From the NCBI RefSeq assembly GCF_000422285.1, contig NZ_AULM01000031.1, positions 1 through 43,048 of the forward strand: 43,048 nt of DNA. Reading direction: 5' to 3'. The stretch comes from Desulfatiglans anilini DSM 4660. GTDB lineage: Bacteria; Desulfobacterota; DSM-4660; Desulfatiglandales; Desulfatiglandaceae. The notes beneath the pieces were generated by a model, which made no database searches, had not been told where the DNA came from, and saw only the letters and a program-made list of their open reading frames with translations. How positions within the stretch are numbered: position 1 is the first letter of the stretch; every line of letters begins with the position of its first letter. A program made the translations under genes and the position numbers. This document shows positions 17,681 to 39,746 of this stretch, piece by piece.

Positions 17681-19018
17681 ATGCCGTGGTTTTGCAGAGT
17701 GATCCTGTGTGGCGCCTCTTTGATACTGGCATTGTTTGCCCAGCCCGCGCTGGGCGGCATCGTAAACGATACAGTCGTCGTGCAGTCCAAAGAAAGCGAC
17801 GCTTACGCAAAGCTGTATAATCTGACCGCCAATGTCTCGAGCAACTATGCCTATCTGGGTAAAGGATACCTGGTCGGGTGGCGTTTCGAGAACATGCCCC
17901 TGCCCCGAGGGGCCAAGATAGTCGATGCAGTCTTGGAGCTTTTCTGCAATCAGAAGGAAAGCGCTCCCTTGACGGTTCGCTACCTCGGGGAAGCGGCCGA
18001 CGATTCGGTTCCTTTCACGACAAGCGTGGGTGACATCGCCAACCGCAGAAAGACGAACTCCTCCATCTTGGATTCACCTGGATCCTGGAGCCTGTGGGGA
18101 TGGAACTCGAGCCCCTCGCTTCAAGCGGTTATTCAGGAGATCGTCGACCGGCCGGGATGGCGCTGCGGGCATGCCCTCGCGGTATTTGCGGACGGCTCCG
18201 TGAGCCCGGCCTGCCGGGGGATCTATATGAGCGAAAGGGCGCCGGAGTACGCGGCCCGCCTCCATGTCTCGTATCTGCTGGAGCAGGTCGAGTACGACAC
18301 GGACGGGGACCACGTTCCCGATCTCATCCTTTACGACCGGGACGGGGACGGGTATTTCGAATGTCCGGTGGGGAAGACGGAATACACCGGGACCCTGGTG
18401 GTTGAGCATCCCCTGGAGATCATGGGATACCCGGCGACGCGTTCCGAAACCCTCTTCAAAGGCGGGGCTTTCATCCTGACGAACGGCGGCAGGATCATCA
18501 GCGATTTGTGTTCCCCCATTGTCAGCTCGGCCTTTCCCGAACTGAAAGGAAACGATCTCCAGGTTGTCGCCCGCAACCACATATTCATCAGCTACAATGG
18601 AAAGATCTTGCTTGGGGGTGACGGCACAGAAAACTGGGACGGGGACGTCTACCTCGAAACCACGCGACCCGGTTCCGAAATCATCCTGAAAGAAGGCGCT
18701 TCGATATTTGGCCGCCATATCGACCTGATCACCTTTATGGGCGAAATCAACATCCGAAGGAACTGCAACCTCATCGGGAACTCGCACATCAATTTCAAAG
18801 CGCTTGAGAGCGGCGACATCCGTCTGAACCGCGACGTCGCCATATCGACTTCATCTCTGGATGGTGACTGCTGGGTCAAATTCACTGTCAGAGAAGGCGA
18901 CGTACATATGAACCGCGATATAGAGATCAGCGCCGATGTGATCGACATGTGCGGAGTTAACGGGAATATCTGGGATGATGGAGAAATCCGCATCATAGGC
19001 CTGAGGCAATGCTGGTAA
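17681..19018 (+). CDS. Secreted CBM96/DNRLRE-like domain protein
   Basis: The protein of 445 residues begins with a signal peptide (MPWFCRVILCGASLILALFA, QPALGGI). It then has a DNRLRE/CBM96-like beta-sandwich module, with the pattern NYAYLGKGYLVGWRFENMPL and, later, SPSLQAVIQEIVDRPGW. A calcium-binding type loop (DTDGDHVPD, YDRDGDGYFE) lies near residue 207-227. The C-terminal half is repetitive and beta-helix-like (GNSHINFKAL, GDIRLNRDVAI, GDVHMNRDIEI). It is probably an extracellular or surface matrix protein that binds the polysaccharide made by this locus. A strong AAAGGAGGAT ribosome binding site supports the start. Confidence 0.75.
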   Translation: MPWFCRVILCGASLILALFAQPALGGIVNDTVVVQSKESDAYAKLYNLTANVSSNYAYLGKGYLVGWRFENMPLPRGAKIVDAVLELFCNQKESAPLTVRYLGEAADDSVPFTTSVGDIANRRKTNSSILDSPGSWSLWGWNSSPSLQAVIQEIVDRPGWRCGHALAVFADGSVSPACRGIYMSERAPEYAARLHVSYLLEQVEYDTDGDHVPDLILYDRDGDGYFECPVGKTEYTGTLVVEHPLEIMGYPATRSETLFKGGAFILTNGGRIISDLCSPIVSSAFPELKGNDLQVVARNHIFISYNGKILLGGDGTENWDGDVYLETTRPGSEIILKEGASIFGRHIDLITFMGEINIRRNCNLIGNSHINFKALESGDIRLNRDVAISTSSLDGDCWVKFTVREGDVHMNRDIEISADVIDMCGVNGNIWDDGEIRIIGLRQCW

Positions 19019-32829: not shown

Positions 32830-35760
32830 TCATGGGACAAACGTTATGCTGAGAATAATCGGCAGAGACGGGTCCAGCTCAAAGCAAGGAATCATTCGGC
32901 AGCGGTCGCTCCCGGCATCCTCTGCAAAAAGGGCCAATGCATTGCCGCTCCGCCAGTCTGGTGCGTTCACGATCTCCTGGACAATCGCGCAAAGGTTTGC
33001 GCTCCCGTTGTATGCGTTCTGCTCCCAAGCGCCCGGCTCATGGAGAACCTCCGCCATCGTCTTCGGCCTTGCACTCAGGCCGTGCGGAGCGCTCGTGAAC
33101 GGGTCGGAGTGTGCGCTCATCTCACCGGTGTACCTGATCCTGATGGGGTTGGTCCCATAAAGACGGCAGGGAATCTGCAGAAACGCCTCCCGGATCACCG
33201 CCCCGGGCGGCAGGGGAACCGATGCAAACCGGAAGCCGTTGATCCACCCCTGGCCTATATACATCGTTTTCCCGATTGTCGAGACAGCGCCGTTATAGGT
33301 TTTTTCCCCGGCATCGTCCGAACCCGTCCCGATCTCTACCTGGATCGTCTGAGGTTCTCCCTCGGGCACCGGCTCCGAAAACACCTCGATCAGCCTTGGG
33401 GTTTCATTTCCTGCAGCGTCATCGGCACATACCACAATGGTGTTCAAACCCTCCTGAAGAGGAATGGCGTCGATGCGCCAGTGCGTCGTCCCATCGGCTA
33501 GGCCCGAGACCCCCTTGTCCGTCGACCAGTGCACGCGGGTGACGCCCACGTTATCCCAGGCCGTCCCGGAAACATCGATCTGCAGCAGGTGGGTCACCAG
33601 AGGTCCGAGCATAACCGGATCCGTGATGTGAATCTGCGGCGGCACATCGTCTTCAGGCAGAGCAGTCATTCGGTACGTCACTGTCAGAAGCGCCCCTTGC
33701 GCGGGGTCCTGCTCGAATGCGGCAACCCGCCTGTAGGCGTTACTGCCCCGATCGGAGATGAAAAGATTCATCCCCGAACCCTCTCGCCAGCCCGGCCGCT
33801 GAACGATCTCCTGTACAACACTCTGCAGATCCGGGCTCTCATTGTATGCCCCGTTGACCCACACACCCGGCCGGTCGGCGATCGAAGCCAAGGTCTTCGG
33901 CCGGCCGCTCAAGTCCCTGGAAACCGCCGAAAAGGCAGAGGCGTCATCCGCGGCCTCCCCCTGGTAGAGGAGGTCCACGCTGCGATCCCCATATCCCCAG
34001 CAATACATTTTCAATTTGGCCGAAACGATGCTTGCGCCTAAGGGGATCGGAAGCCGATCGAAATGAAAAGCGTTGATATAACCCGCACCAACATATTGCC
34101 TTCCGAATGTCGGCAAAGTCATCCCGTTATAGGTCTTTTCGAGTGAATCCATATACCGATCCGCCACCTGCACTTCGATGGTCCGCAAAACGGAGGGATC
34201 GGGTTCATAGACAATCAGGATGATCGCTTTCCCCTGATTGTTTGCGGTGTCCCACGCAGTGACCGTTATCTGGTTTTCGCCCTCCTGAAGCTGCATGGCC
34301 GGGATGGACCAGTTCGCTCCACCCTCTGCCGGCCCTGAGCCTCCCCGGTCATTCTGCCAGGTGACATAGGCGATGCCTGAATCGTCGGACGCCCTGCCTG
34401 CGATCGTCACCGGGCTTTCTGCGCTGCGACAACTCGGTTCGGAGGTTGGAGAGAGGATCTCGACCATGGGCGGGGTCTTGTCCGAGGGATCACCCGGACA
34501 CACCGCAAGCGCTTGGAAGAGATTCAAATTTCCAAAATTGCGGTGAAGGGTGGGCCAGCAGGAACCATCGAACTGGAGTCGATCCGAAAACGCCTCGAGG
34601 ATCTCCGCCGCCTCGCCATATGTAAGGTTCGGATTTTGGGCAAAAAGCCGGGCTGCAGCCGCCGCCACAAAAGGCGTCGCCATGGAGGTCCCGCTCCAGG
34701 ATCCATAGCCTCCCCCCGGCAACGTGGAAAAGATGCTCACCCCCGGCGCGGAGATCGTCACATATTCGCCGTAATTGGAAAAGCTAGCCCTGCAATCCCG
34801 CTGATCGTTCGCTGCAACAGCCATCACCCCATCCGAATAAAGCGACCAGAAAGCGGGGAAATTCGCTTCGGTGCTGTTGCTGTTGCCTGCTGCCGCCACC
34901 AGGAGTTTCCCCTTGTCAACGGCATAATCGACCGCATCGTGAAAAATCACGGTCCCCATGTACGTGCCGAGGCTCAAGTTGATGACGCGCACCTCGGGCC
35001 GGTCGGCGGCATCATAGATGGCCTGAATCACGTTCCAGGTGGAACCCGAACCATCACTCCCGAGAGCCTTGTAGGCGAGAATCCTCACGCTGTCGATGAC
35101 TCCAGCGCTTCCCTCTCCGTTGTCCGCCGCAGCGGCGATAATACCACTGACATGTGTCCCATGGCCGTGGTCATCCATAGGATCGGCATCCCCGTTATGG
35201 AAATCATAGCCGGGGATCACTCTCCCTGCCAGTTCCGGATGCCTGTAATCGACGCCCGTGTCGATGACCGCCACCACAGGCCCCTCCCCTCTCCAGTAAG
35301 CCACTTGATCCGCTTCGATATCGGTATACCCCCAGGTAAGATAGGGATCGTTCGGGATCGCGGCCGCAAAAGCTCCGCCGCCCATCGAGCCGCCATCCAG
35401 GATCGCATCCGGCGCCGGGTCCGGGATAGAGACCGGAGCGTTCGGTTCGACACGAATGAAACCGGAAAATCGGTTCAAGGCCTGGAGAAACCGTTCCTGA
35501 AGGATGCCGGGATGCCTTTGGATGAGGAGTAAATGCGGCCTATTGGGCATAACCGCTTTGAGTCGGCCGCCAGCCCCTTCGGCGAGCGCTCGGGGATCCA
35601 GATTCTTGGCGTTGTGGTCGGGCTGAAGGGATACGATGAACTCATCGAATCCTTGAGCAGCGGCGGACGAACTGAACAGATGCAGTCCGGGCCATAAAAG
35701 AACGGTGACAAGAGAAAGGATCAGCCAAAAAACATGTTCGCCTTTGCTGCGGTAAGACAT
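32830..35760 (-). CDS. Secreted subtilisin-like serine protease (S8) with Ig-like and CBM96-like modules
   Basis: The 976-residue protein has a signal peptide (VFWLILSLVTVLLWPGLHL) and a propeptide region. The S8 catalytic domain has Asp167 (VAVIDTGVDYRHPEL), His200 (DDHGHGTHVSG), Asn293 (AAGNSNS) and Ser359 (GTSMATPFVAAA). The C-terminal half alternates two Ig-like domains (beginning near residue 430, TPPMVEILSP, and PPQIHITDP) with two DNRLRE/CBM96-like modules (EKTYNGMTLP and EKTYNGAVST). These modules are similar to those in the genes at 17681 and 37065. A protease with matrix-binding modules could process secreted matrix proteins or precursors. The gene has a GGAGGTG ribosome binding site and is controlled by a c-di-GMP-I riboswitch (see 35843-36039). 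Confidence 0.87.
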   Translation of the reverse strand: MSYRSKGEHVFWLILSLVTVLLWPGLHLFSSSAAAQGFDEFIVSLQPDHNAKNLDPRALAEGAGGRLKAVMPNRPHLLLIQRHPGILQERFLQALNRFSGFIRVEPNAPVSIPDPAPDAILDGGSMGGGAFAAAIPNDPYLTWGYTDIEADQVAYWRGEGPVVAVIDTGVDYRHPELAGRVIPGYDFHNGDADPMDDHGHGTHVSGIIAAAADNGEGSAGVIDSVRILAYKALGSDGSGSTWNVIQAIYDAADRPEVRVINLSLGTYMGTVIFHDAVDYAVDKGKLLVAAAGNSNSTEANFPAFWSLYSDGVMAVAANDQRDCRASFSNYGEYVTISAPGVSIFSTLPGGGYGSWSGTSMATPFVAAAAARLFAQNPNLTYGEAAEILEAFSDRLQFDGSCWPTLHRNFGNLNLFQALAVCPGDPSDKTPPMVEILSPTSEPSCRSAESPVTIAGRASDDSGIAYVTWQNDRGGSGPAEGGANWSIPAMQLQEGENQITVTAWDTANNQGKAIILIVYEPDPSVLRTIEVQVADRYMDSLEKTYNGMTLPTFGRQYVGAGYINAFHFDRLPIPLGASIVSAKLKMYCWGYGDRSVDLLYQGEAADDASAFSAVSRDLSGRPKTLASIADRPGVWVNGAYNESPDLQSVVQEIVQRPGWREGSGMNLFISDRGSNAYRRVAAFEQDPAQGALLTVTYRMTALPEDDVPPQIHITDPVMLGPLVTHLLQIDVSGTAWDNVGVTRVHWSTDKGVSGLADGTTHWRIDAIPLQEGLNTIVVCADDAAGNETPRLIEVFSEPVPEGEPQTIQVEIGTGSDDAGEKTYNGAVSTIGKTMYIGQGWINGFRFASVPLPPGAVIREAFLQIPCRLYGTNPIRIRYTGEMSAHSDPFTSAPHGLSARPKTMAEVLHEPGAWEQNAYNGSANLCAIVQEIVNAPDWRSGNALALFAEDAGSDRCRMIPCFELDPSLPIILSITFVP

Positions 35761-35796
35761 ACCTCTGCACCTCCTGATGGTTTATTCCCAGAATAC

Positions 35797-35847
35797 AGAC
35801 GAAATGATGGAATAGACCACAGGATGTCCTACCAAAGCATTTCGTCC
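35797..35847 (-). promoter_or_regulatory. Possible expression-platform stem for the c-di-GMP riboswitch
   Basis: On the minus strand, GGACGAAATG (RC of 35838-35847) pairs with CATTTCGTCT (RC of 35797-35806): nine perfect pairs plus one G-U. The first arm overlaps the 3' side of the riboswitch P1 helix, so this stem and P1 cannot form together, a typical switching geometry. It lies 37-87 nt upstream of the subtilase start. Confidence 0.5.
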
Positions 35848-36039
35848 GAGCAACCCCGCTACCGGAACCGCTTCCCGATGCGAACGATGGAGTGGCACAA
35901 GCGGCTGACTGCCCGGACTGCATCCCCAAGAGAGGCGCCCCGCATCTCAACCGCCGACCCATGATCACCCAGAAGCGCTGTTCTGCGGCCGGTGGCTTTG
36001 CGTCCCATCCTTATCGGAATGGTTTGCCTTTTTCGAACG
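35843..36039 (-). promoter_or_regulatory. c-di-GMP-I (GEMM-I) riboswitch with enlarged P3
   Basis: Read on the minus strand. P1 is CGTTCGA at 36039-36033 pairing with TCGGACG at 35849-35843 (7 bp). The aptamer then reads GGCAAACC, a CC-ATTCC/GGAT-GG hairpin (P2, 36022-36006), GGGACGCAAAGCC, ACCGGCC, and finally GGTAGCGGGGTTGC (about 35862-35849). These are the conserved GEMM-I signature blocks. P3 is closed by GAAC-CGCTTC (35983-35972) pairing with GAAGCG-GTTC (35874-35865), which leaves a ~97-nt insertion in the P3 loop. It lies 82 nt upstream of the subtilase start codon. It binds the second messenger c-di-GMP and is expected to control transcription elongation or translation of the protease. 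Confidence 0.82.
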
Positions 36040-36161: not shown

Positions 36162-36190
36162 AATATAAAATAGAGAGCAAAGCCCGTCAA
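36162..36190 (-). promoter_or_regulatory. Sigma70-type promoter for the riboswitch/protease transcript
   Basis: On the minus strand, TTGACG (plus 36185-36190) and TATATT (plus 36162-36167) are separated by 17 bp. This is a near-consensus sigma70 promoter. The transcript would begin near 36155, leaving about 115 nt before the aptamer. A CCGGCTGTCGCCGG hairpin lies just inside the transcript. Confidence 0.6.
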
Positions 36191-36433
36191 GCAATAAAAT
36201 GCCATTAACCATCTATTCATACCGATCTAGGTGAAATTATCCGGTCAAGGATGAAGTCTATTGGCAATTTTTTCATAATAATAGAAATATGCGCCAACTC
36301 ATATTAACGCGTACTAAAATAATCAGAAAGAGTTTTAATAGCATACAAACTTATTTAAGCAATACTACACTCTATGCAATATGGATATGTACTGCATGTT
36401 TTACAGATAAATTATTATATAATAAAGGAATTG

Positions 36434-36865
36434 GTGGAGGCGATGAAAGAAAATGATAAAATTCAATTTGTAGAGAAAAGAGCATTCCAGCGCTTTTTAC
36501 TCGACAAAGATGTCTATTCTTTCACACACGCTGGCAAAATACTTGGCCTGATCAAGGATATCAGTACAGGTGGCATGACTGTTCAGTACGTCGTTCTGAA
36601 TGAGCGCCAACCGATAGATACCCTCTTTGATCTTGTCGACATCTTTATGATAGGCGGTCATTTCGTCGTTCGAGACACTCCGTGCAGAATAATCTACGAT
36701 CGGCGCTGCCCCAGAGAAGATCATTCATTCGGGCTGGTGGAAACGCGACGTATGGGCATTCAGTTTGGTCGCCTTTCAGCGGACCGCCAGGCCGCCATCA
36801 AGACCCTCATCGAAACATGCGCCCTGAGAGTTGCCCCGGAGAATACCGGGCCGGAATTGGCTTAA
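36434..36865 (+). CDS. PilZ-domain protein
   Basis: A protein of about 140-145 residues with the PilZ c-di-GMP-binding pattern: EKRAFQRF (RxxxR) near the start, DISTGGM (D/NxSxxG) and a terminal MGIQFG segment. It is expected to bind c-di-GMP and to act as a receptor for EPS or motility control. It sits next to a c-di-GMP riboswitch and within an EPS locus, which supports c-di-GMP control of the region. The start is either GTG 36434 (AAAGGA upstream) or ATG 36443 (GGAGG only two nucleotides upstream); both give the same domain. Confidence 0.78.
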   Translation: MEAMKENDKIQFVEKRAFQRFLLDKDVYSFTHAGKILGLIKDISTGGMTVQYVVLNERQPIDTLFDLVDIFMIGGHFVVRDTPCRIIYDRRCPREDHSFGLVETRRMGIQFGRLSADRQAAIKTLIETCALRVAPENTGPELA

Positions 36866-37064: not shown

Positions 37065-39743
37065 TCAATCGAGGAAATGGGGAAGCGGCGGGAAGACGCC
37101 GCTTCGGATATTGATCACGATCTCCTTATCATACGGATCGAGCGGCAGGGCTCCAGCCTGATCCAACACAGCTGAAAACGCCGCCTCTGCTGTTTGAGTG
37201 GTAACTGGAGGTACGTCCAGGGGCGCCGACAGTCGGGAGAGGTCCAACTCCTGAGGAGGCAGGATATTTCCGTCAATCCAGGCAGCCGAAGCCGCATCGA
37301 AATACCAGATTGCGGCATGCCCCCTTGTACTGTTCGGAGCGAGCCGGTAAACGTTATTAACGATGTTGGCTCGTGCACCCATGGCCAGTAGTGTTCCGTA
37401 GCTTCCCCATTGGTACATAACATTATTACGCAAATCGAAAACACCTTCATTCAATGAGGGAAGTCTTGCACCGCTATTGTAGAACAAATTGTGATGCAGA
37501 GTGATATTGGTTGTCCCGTTATATTTAACGAGGCTTTGTTTCCACGTATTTGCGAGAATACACCACGAAACAGTTATATCCTTGCTTGCACCGTAGCTAT
37601 AACCGGTAATGTCCAGATTGCCGTCGCCTGAATCAGCGATAGAACAATGATCTATGATCATATTACAGCATGAATTAATCTGGACACAATCAAAAGGGAA
37701 ACTGGATTTTCTGACCCGCAATCCTCTAAGAATGATATTTTCAGAACCAATGACGTAAAGTGTCATATCCGAGAAAACGACTCCAGACCCCAATCCATCA
37801 AGGGTAACATTCTGCAACTGGTCCAGGTGGATATCTGAATGATAGCTCCAATCACCCGAAAGCCGGATGGATGCATTTCCACCCGCTGAACAGGTGGCAC
37901 TGAGGATGGCCTCCAATTCCGATGGACTGCTGGCCGTGAATTCCTCATGTCCCCACCCACCGGTCGTTGCAGCGCCGAACCCCTCAGCAAATCCTTCATA
38001 GGCGGGCTCCTGCATCACGACGATATCGACGGTATCCGAGGAAAGTGCGCCATCCGCGAAAAGAACCTCTACGTGTACGGTATACGCGCCTTCCATTTCG
38101 TACCGGTGCACGGGTTCAGATTCCGCTGACGTACTTCCGTCTCCGAAATCCCATGCAAAGGAAACAACGGGATCGGAATAAAAGGAAACAGCCCGAAAAT
38201 GGACATTTTCCCCTGGCACCACCGCCTGTGGCTCCGCAACAGCTGTCACCGAATCCTCCCCCGGAAGGTGGTATTGAACGTACAGTGCAGCCGCCTCTGA
38301 TGGATCCCCTTCAAAAGCTCGCAGGCTGCGGTAGGAGGAACTTCCGTTGTCATACACAAGAATGCTGATGGGATTGCCCTCCTGCCATCCCGGCAATTCG
38401 ATCACGCTCTGCAGCAACTGCCTCAGGTTCGGGCTTGCGTTGTACACGCCCGATTGCCAGACGGGGCTGCGGTCCAGCACCGATTCGCTGGTGTAAAGCC
38501 TTGAACTGAGATCTAACGACCTCCAGCCGAAGGCCTCGGAATAGGCTGAACGCTCGGCGACGTATTTGAGACTTACGTCGTTCTCCACACCGGATGCGCA
38601 GGCCATCAGAAGGTGGGCCTTTTCTACCGCCGCGTTGGGAGGAATCGGACAATTCAGAAACCGGAAGCCGGCCGTCTGATCCTTTCCGATTAAAATTACG
38701 CTGTTACTTGACACAACGGCCCCGTTGTAAGTCTTTTCGAAGGCATCGTTCTCTCCGGCCGTCACAGAAAGAAAAGCCTCCTGTAGAAGGCCGTCCGGAG
38801 GGATATACGTGATGTGGCGCGAAGCGGTCCCGCAATTGCCGGACCCGTCCCAAGCCCGTACCGTAATCGAGTTTGCGCCTTCGACCAAGGGCACGTCCAG
38901 GATGGACCATTCACCTGTACCGGTTGCGGCCGCCTTGTATCCGGAGCGGGTCTCACATTCGACCTTTGTCACGAGGATGTTGTCCCAGGCCGTACCTTCG
39001 AGATCGATCCAGGGTTCCGATCTTTTCGTATCGGCAGGAGGCGTGAGGATGCTCACATCGGGGGGCACGGTGTCGTTCGAAGGGTCGGAAGGATCGTAAA
39101 GATAGTGAACGACGAGTTCAGCCGCATGGGCCGTGACGTAATCGATATGGTCCACCTTGCGAATACCTTCACTACCGTGGTCCTCGACGATAAGGGAAAG
39201 AGCGCCTCCCTGGACCCACCCCGGGCGGGAAATAATCTCCTGCACGATATCAGACAGTTCGGGACTCGCGCTGAAATCATAATGGTTCCAAGCCCCCGGC
39301 GTATCGATCACTGCTGCGCTCGTGCGTTTCCGACCACTGAGGCCATGAGGCGCGGTGTCAAACGGCATCGAGTCATCAGACGCATCGCCCGTATACCGGA
39401 GCGTGATCGAACGCGTCTCATACCCGGAGGCATATTGAAACAATTGGGCGGATTCGATGATCGCGTTCCTGGGAATTTGAACCTCGTCAAATCGATAGGC
39501 AAGCAGATAGTTTTTCCCCGCGTAGGTGTATTTCTTGTTTGTGGCGACAAAGCCGCTATCGAGTGATTCGACGGCATCATCCAACGATGCCGCCACCCGG
39601 CACCTGGCAACGATTTCATTTTCCTGTGCCGCGGTCAAAGACGTCGGAAGGCAGACGCTCAGTAACAGGAGCACACACGCAGAAATGGCCCAGCGGTGCA
39701 GAAGATCACTGCTTTTCCTCGTTTCTCTCTGAAGTACCATCAT
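37065..39743 (-). CDS. Secreted pectate-lyase-like protein with Ig-like, CBM96-like and PKD modules
   Basis: The protein of about 892 residues starts with a signal peptide (ISACVLLLLSVCLPTSLTAA). It continues with a CBM96/DNRLRE-like module, an Ig-like domain (PPDVSILTPP), a second CBM96-like module (EKTYNGAVVSSN) and a PKD domain (FAWDFGDGSTSAES, YTVHVEVLFADG). The C-terminal ~300 residues resemble pectate lyases of the PL1/Pec_lyase_C beta-helix type: GFGAATTGGWG, the calcium-site run IDHCSIADSGDGNLDITG and ITLHHNLFYNSGARLP with the catalytic-type arginine. It could cut or bind a uronic-acid polymer. A GGAGGTGA ribosome binding site supports ATG 39743 (39740 and TTG 39746 are nearly equivalent). 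Confidence 0.82.
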   Translation of the reverse strand: MMVLQRETRKSSDLLHRWAISACVLLLLSVCLPTSLTAAQENEIVARCRVAASLDDAVESLDSGFVATNKKYTYAGKNYLLAYRFDEVQIPRNAIIESAQLFQYASGYETRSITLRYTGDASDDSMPFDTAPHGLSGRKRTSAAVIDTPGAWNHYDFSASPELSDIVQEIISRPGWVQGGALSLIVEDHGSEGIRKVDHIDYVTAHAAELVVHYLYDPSDPSNDTVPPDVSILTPPADTKRSEPWIDLEGTAWDNILVTKVECETRSGYKAAATGTGEWSILDVPLVEGANSITVRAWDGSGNCGTASRHITYIPPDGLLQEAFLSVTAGENDAFEKTYNGAVVSSNSVILIGKDQTAGFRFLNCPIPPNAAVEKAHLLMACASGVENDVSLKYVAERSAYSEAFGWRSLDLSSRLYTSESVLDRSPVWQSGVYNASPNLRQLLQSVIELPGWQEGNPISILVYDNGSSSYRSLRAFEGDPSEAAALYVQYHLPGEDSVTAVAEPQAVVPGENVHFRAVSFYSDPVVSFAWDFGDGSTSAESEPVHRYEMEGAYTVHVEVLFADGALSSDTVDIVVMQEPAYEGFAEGFGAATTGGWGHEEFTASSPSELEAILSATCSAGGNASIRLSGDWSYHSDIHLDQLQNVTLDGLGSGVVFSDMTLYVIGSENIILRGLRVRKSSFPFDCVQINSCCNMIIDHCSIADSGDGNLDITGYSYGASKDITVSWCILANTWKQSLVKYNGTTNITLHHNLFYNSGARLPSLNEGVFDLRNNVMYQWGSYGTLLAMGARANIVNNVYRLAPNSTRGHAAIWYFDAASAAWIDGNILPPQELDLSRLSAPLDVPPVTTQTAEAAFSAVLDQAGALPLDPYDKEIVINIRSGVFPPLPHFLD

Positions 39744-39746
39744 CAA

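Follow-up and report, generated by a model that had tools for sequence, protein, structure and literature searches.

In C. difficile, the secreted protease PPEP-1 (ppep-1, CD2830) is under the control of a class I c-di-GMP riboswitch and releases adhesins when c-di-GMP is low (PMC11477304). Aptamers of this class (GEMM-I, RF01051) include Vc2, Vc1, Cd1 and Bc1. In Vc2 and Vc1 the ligand is contacted by residues G20, A47 and C92, and an interhelical C-G pair is universal (PMC4744006). A locus of related design is found in Desulfatiglans anilini DSM 4660, within a window (the whole stretch of DNA analysed, 43,048 nucleotides of contig NZ_AULM01000031.1) in which a c-di-GMP-I aptamer lies on the minus strand at 36039-35843 and the ATG of an S8 protease gene follows 82 nt downstream. 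Since the PPEP-1 precedent is published, the regulatory idea is less new than the initial annotation of this DNA implied; new in this study are two mutually exclusive structures predicted downstream of the aptamer.

The aptamer shares with RF01051 members the P1/P2/P3 junction, equivalents of G20, A47 and C92, the interhelical C-G pair and a P3 core with a 3′ AG bulge and a 5′ bulge. It differs from them in its apical P3, which makes it ~100 nt longer than usual members, in a CGATAA loop on P2 and in having no CCTAAG..TATGG receptor. The element is a real, well-formed and mostly ordinary c-di-GMP-I riboswitch with an odd P3, and is predicted from its sequence to bind c-di-GMP.

The aptamer and its genomic setting

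The initial annotation had placed a GEMM-I aptamer here, directly upstream of a secreted protease and in a region with a PilZ protein, and had proposed scoring it with the RF01051 covariance model. Every landmark that it named lies in its place on the minus strand (GGGACGCAAAGCC, GGTAGCGGGGTT, GAAC/GTTC and CGCTTC/GAAGCG included), the model score passes the curated cut-off, and an exported protease gene and a PilZ gene are both present. The features of the aptamer and its neighbours are:

35843..36039, minus strand: c-di-GMP-I (GEMM-I) aptamer (covariance models, folding, alignment)
36033..36039, minus strand: P1 5′ strand CGTTCGA (sequence, folding)
36005..36022, minus strand: P2 hairpin CCAT(T)CC-GATAA-GGATGG, its loop not a plain GNRA tetraloop
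35980..35997, minus strand: P3 core, 5′ side AGCC-A-CCG-GCCG-CA-GAAC (folding)
35852..35868, minus strand: P3 core, 3′ side GTTC-CGGT-AG-CGG-GGTT (folding)
35843..35849, minus strand: P1 3′ strand TCGGACG, shared with the anti-P1 hairpin (sequence, folding)
36028, minus strand: G, equivalent of ligand contact G20 of Vc2 (alignment; contacts from PMC4744006)
35999, minus strand: A, equivalent of ligand contact A47 of Vc2 (alignment; contacts from PMC4744006)
35850, minus strand: C, equivalent of ligand contact C92 of Vc2 (alignment; contacts from PMC4744006)
36002 + 35859, minus strand: interhelical pair C36002-G35859, the latter in the 3′ AG bulge of P3 (sequence; pair from PMC4744006)
32830..35760, minus strand: exported S8 (subtilisin-like) protease of 976 aa, the putative regulated gene (PF00082, motifs; signal peptide by inspection)
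36374..36865, plus strand: PilZ-domain gene, divergently transcribed, encoding RxxxR and DxSxxG motifs (domain search, motifs)

When the window is searched with all Rfam families, RF01051 scores 35.8 bits (E 0.0017) against a gathering cut-off of 35 bits. A whole-genome search gives the same match an E of 4.4e-5. The P3 insert keeps the score down: the alignment takes the 5′ half of the aptamer and then jumps P3. The related model RF03167 (c-di-GMP-I-GGC) covers all 193 nt, opening an insertion of 120 nt, and reaches 38.8 bits, short of its own cut-off of 59 bits. Identity of the 5′ core to canonical, high-scoring aptamers of relatives goes up to 92%, and L036 is the best core match (91% over 54 nt).

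Folded without constraints, the sequence adopts the GEMM-I three-way junction as its minimum-energy structure. A P1 of 7 bp (CGTTCGA/TCGGACG) is followed by GC/GC pairs, P2 and then P3, which runs through AGCC/GGTT, CCG/CGG, the 3′ AG bulge, GCCG/CGGT, a 5′ CA bulge and GAAC/GTTC into the extension. Alignment to ~30 aptamers of the order Desulfatiglandales shows that the known c-di-GMP contact residues are all kept. The same alignment reveals no CCTAAG..TATGG receptor in P3, whereas most canonical relatives in the GGCAAACC subgroup combine such receptor-like segments with a GAAA loop in P2; the P2 loop here is CGATAA. With neither a GNRA tetraloop nor a receptor, the aptamer is a member of the c-di-GMP-I class but not of its type I. 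Type II members of class I that have no receptor are described (PMC11218506), so the degenerate receptor leaves c-di-GMP binding possible. Since tetraloop and receptor are both degenerate, affinity for c-di-GMP may be lower than that of canonical aptamers.

The protease matches PF00082 in Pfam with 180.9 bits, which places it among the S8 subtilases. Its catalytic-triad motifs are all there (D in DTG 167, H in HGTH 200, S in GTSMA 357), and it carries an N-terminal signal sequence, as judged by inspection, and Ig-like modules. The rest of the window appears, from a reading of its open reading frames, to hold an exopolysaccharide-type gene cluster. No other riboswitch is found in the window, for example 5′ of the pectate-lyase-like gene. 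An orthologue of the riboswitch-protease pair or its architecture was not found in the relatives searched, and a genome of the same genus has neither the protease nor the riboswitch. As a separate observation, one module recurs in three exported proteins, among them the protease and the PKD/pectate-lyase-like protein (17681-19018, 32830-35760 and 37065-39746; 35-43% identity), which matched no Pfam family in the two proteins scanned.

The long P3 arm

The departure from the class lies at the apex of P3:

35869..35977, minus strand: apical P3 extension, a CGCTTCT/GGAAGCG stem and a 97-nt insert (folding, shuffles, pattern searches)

The initial annotation had described an insertion of ~97 nt closed by GAAC/GTTC and CGCTTC/GAAGCG and had called it unusual. 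Both points stand, as exactly 97 nt separate CGCTTC from GAAGCG (35971-35875) and surveys find no counterpart. Across 61 genomes of the order, other GEMM-I matches measure 74-136 nt, bar a few shorter partial ones, at least two of which are at contig ends. Lengths in a phylum-wide sample reach 144 nt among the best 150 matches. A relaxed pattern applied to 85 genomes of the order returns 18 matches of normal length with a spacer of 20-50 nt, none at 84-114 and only this one at 115-145, and a stricter pattern matches no second long-P3 case in 395 genomes of the phylum; both patterns miss many true members, and the uniqueness of the P3 length is therefore indicative.

The 11-pair stem that closes the extension is equalled by 0.4% of shuffles. 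The fold energies of the 97-nt insert (z +0.42) and of the whole aptamer (z -0.45) are no better than those of shuffled sequence, so support beyond chance extends to the core and the closing stem but not to the inside of the insert. The insert is not an independently stable RNA, having shuffle-level stability and no Rfam family. Nor is it a repeat or mobile element: neither the genome nor 60 relatives contain another copy, and there are no repeats in the region. The GEMM-I elements of 113-136 nt found in the order were also considered as long-P3 relatives and rejected, being mostly of another subgroup (C21/G46) with a P3 unrelated to the insert.

Most likely, the aptamer tolerates this arm as an extension of the P3 apex. 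Vc2 crystal constructs reportedly carry a U1A-binding loop at the P3 apex, which suggests that the apex tolerates replacement. That the arm is a functional second domain, either a binding site for protein or RNA or a structural stand-in for the tetraloop-receptor contact that has been lost, is quite improbable; it would imply a two-input or rebuilt c-di-GMP-I aptamer. Combined with the degenerate tetraloop and receptor, the long P3 is a natural experiment on the extent to which the aptamer depends on peripheral docking.

Other GEMM-I elements were met in the course of the surveys. L060-L077, from relatives in the order, form a subgroup with AAAGCCAAACC..GACGGAAAGCC and often a long P3 (113-136 nt). 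Several have a conserved downstream element, GTGTGACATCGT, with a terminator, and in places a TCCTAATAGG..CCTGTTGGGAG hairpin lies upstream. The D. anilini genome itself has two tandem GEMM-I pairs (L001/L002 on contig C20 and L004/L006 on C58), with members ~134-170 nt apart and with terminator-like hairpins, upstream of genes for secreted proteins. It also has L003 (C34:14036-14162), a GEMM-I element upstream of an exported protein, in which G20 is replaced by A (GAAAACCAAACC); this type is associated with cGAMP sensing.

Expression platform and competing explanations

The region between aptamer and gene, and the promoter proposed upstream, contain:

35838..35848, minus strand: anti-P1 hairpin, 5′ arm CGGACGAAATG (folding, shuffles)
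35796..35806, minus strand: anti-P1 hairpin, 3′ arm CATTTCGTCTG (folding, shuffles)
35809..35824, minus strand: sequestor, anti-Shine-Dalgarno side (TCCTG, TGGT, TATTCC; folding)
35770..35788, minus strand: sequestor, hidden side (GGAATA, ACCA, CAGGA; folding)
35775-35770, minus strand: Shine-Dalgarno AGGAGG (sequence)
36162..36190, minus strand: predicted sigma-70-like promoter TTGACG-17 nt-TATATT (10/12 consensus matches)

The anti-P1 helix CGGACGAAATG/CATTTCGTCTG has 11 bp, is equalled in 0.055% of shuffles and occupies 6 of the 7 bases of the P1 3′ strand. The sequestor pairs TCCTG with CAGGA, TGGT with ACCA and TATTCC with GGAATA, and covers part of the Shine-Dalgarno sequence. On folding, the two structures are mutually exclusive, though a pseudoknot might hold both helices together. 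No terminator is found in the downstream region. On the folding model, exclusive helices without a terminator give the locus the make-up of a translational OFF switch. Translational c-di-GMP-I riboswitches of the order (L036/L165, L014, L166, L011 and L019) repeat this arrangement, from P1 strand through anti-Shine-Dalgarno and anti-P1 to Shine-Dalgarno, in sequences that differ; most lie upstream of proteins with a signal-peptide-like start. Those relatives have a P3 of normal length and, in most, a shorter anti-P1.

Switching at equilibrium was considered and given up, as folding predicts a Shine-Dalgarno sequence that is mainly paired in either state, at this locus as in the relatives; switching must then be co-transcriptional. 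In the folding of growing transcripts with no ligand, the anti-P1 form leads P1 by 3-6 kcal/mol for 3′ ends from 35796 to 35776, and P1 with the sequestor is better by about 1-7 kcal/mol from 35772 on. Ligand binding that locked P1 in place before transcription reached 35796 would thus steer the RNA to the sequestered state. With c-di-GMP bound, P1 would keep the strand 35849-35843, TCCTG-TGGT would pair with ACCA-T-CAGGA and the Shine-Dalgarno sequence would be hidden. With no ligand, 35806-35796 would capture the P1 3′ strand in an 11-bp helix ahead of the synthesis of the Shine-Dalgarno sequence, the anti-Shine-Dalgarno would be enclosed in the anti-P1 loop and the gene would be translated. 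The protease would then be produced at low c-di-GMP, perhaps to trim matrix or surface proteins or set them free. The reading favoured here, at a probability of about 0.6, is that the riboswitch represses translation of the exported S8 protease at high c-di-GMP.

A further calculation counts against this reading if the predicted promoter is where the transcript begins. The leader at 36126-36040 (minus strand) can pair with the P3 and P1 strands at 35899-35841, and this pairing is ~5 kcal/mol better than the aptamer fold. The promoter itself is only suggestive, since the region has 3 promoter-like sites against 1.3 expected. Just 5′ of the aptamer, at 36075-36056 (minus strand), AGGAGG is followed after 8 nt by ATG TGA, a start-stop open reading frame that may be due to chance.

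The RF01051 score, barely over its cut-off, is what a fortuitous resemblance with no riboswitch behind it might give, but that is extremely improbable: the insert accounts for the low score, the 5′ core closely resembles high-scoring aptamers of relatives, and the element is followed by a fitting expression platform and a gene. Sensing of another cyclic dinucleotide such as cGAMP could be proposed from the presence of L003 in the same genome and from the alignment of the full aptamer to the variant model RF03167; it is nevertheless very improbable, given the G at the G20 position, the A47 and C92 equivalents and an RF03167 score under its cut-off. A more substantial objection is that a former GEMM-I aptamer is decaying, the insert and the lost tetraloop and receptor having cut or ended binding, so that the leader would constitutively dampen translation. 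The degeneracy of these contacts, a unique insert that is not unusually stable and the want of any orthologue for this singleton are all consistent with such decay. It is still unlikely, as contact residues, P1, the bulges of the P3 core and the anti-P1 element are all intact and the 5′ core remains 91% identical to a canonical aptamer.

The direction of control could also be reversed, with c-di-GMP raising protease output. Here and in the relatives, the anti-Shine-Dalgarno sits in the anti-P1 loop and is freed once P1 forms, which makes an ON switch decidedly doubtful despite a class I precedent, Vc1 upstream of gbpA (PMC4744006).

Comparison with known protease and riboswitch systems

If the translational OFF reading is correct, the D. 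anilini locus parallels ppep-1 in having a class I c-di-GMP riboswitch 5′ of a secreted protease and production predicted at low c-di-GMP. The two differ in that PPEP-1 is a zinc metalloprotease of a Gram-positive host, whereas an S8 protease and a predicted translational platform are found here. Within the order, the nearest aptamer by core identity, L036, controls not a protease but an fn3/PKD protein, and no S8 protease lies 3′ of the other GEMM-I loci examined. Conversely, in 70 S8-containing loci from public genomes, only L081 has such a riboswitch 5′ of a relative of the protease, as an independent case. This locus, from a metagenome-assembled genome labelled Chlamydiae bacterium (JACPWU010000021.1; 5398-5485 and 5573-13077), has an RF03167 match over the cut-off upstream of an S8 operon, followed by a strong intrinsic terminator, a small I9-like open reading frame and a 2368-aa double S8 protein. 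It resembles the present locus in its c-di-GMP-I-type riboswitch 5′ of an S8 protease, and differs in its normal P3, transcriptional platform with a strong terminator, unrelated lineage and larger protease. Control of proteases by c-di-GMP riboswitches may therefore be recurrent as well as of a known kind. Should the proposed switch operate, the logic of PPEP-1, in which low c-di-GMP turns on a secreted protease, would extend to a distant bacterial group with an exopolysaccharide cluster, and together with L081 this would suggest that c-di-GMP riboswitches have come to control subtilases on more than one occasion.
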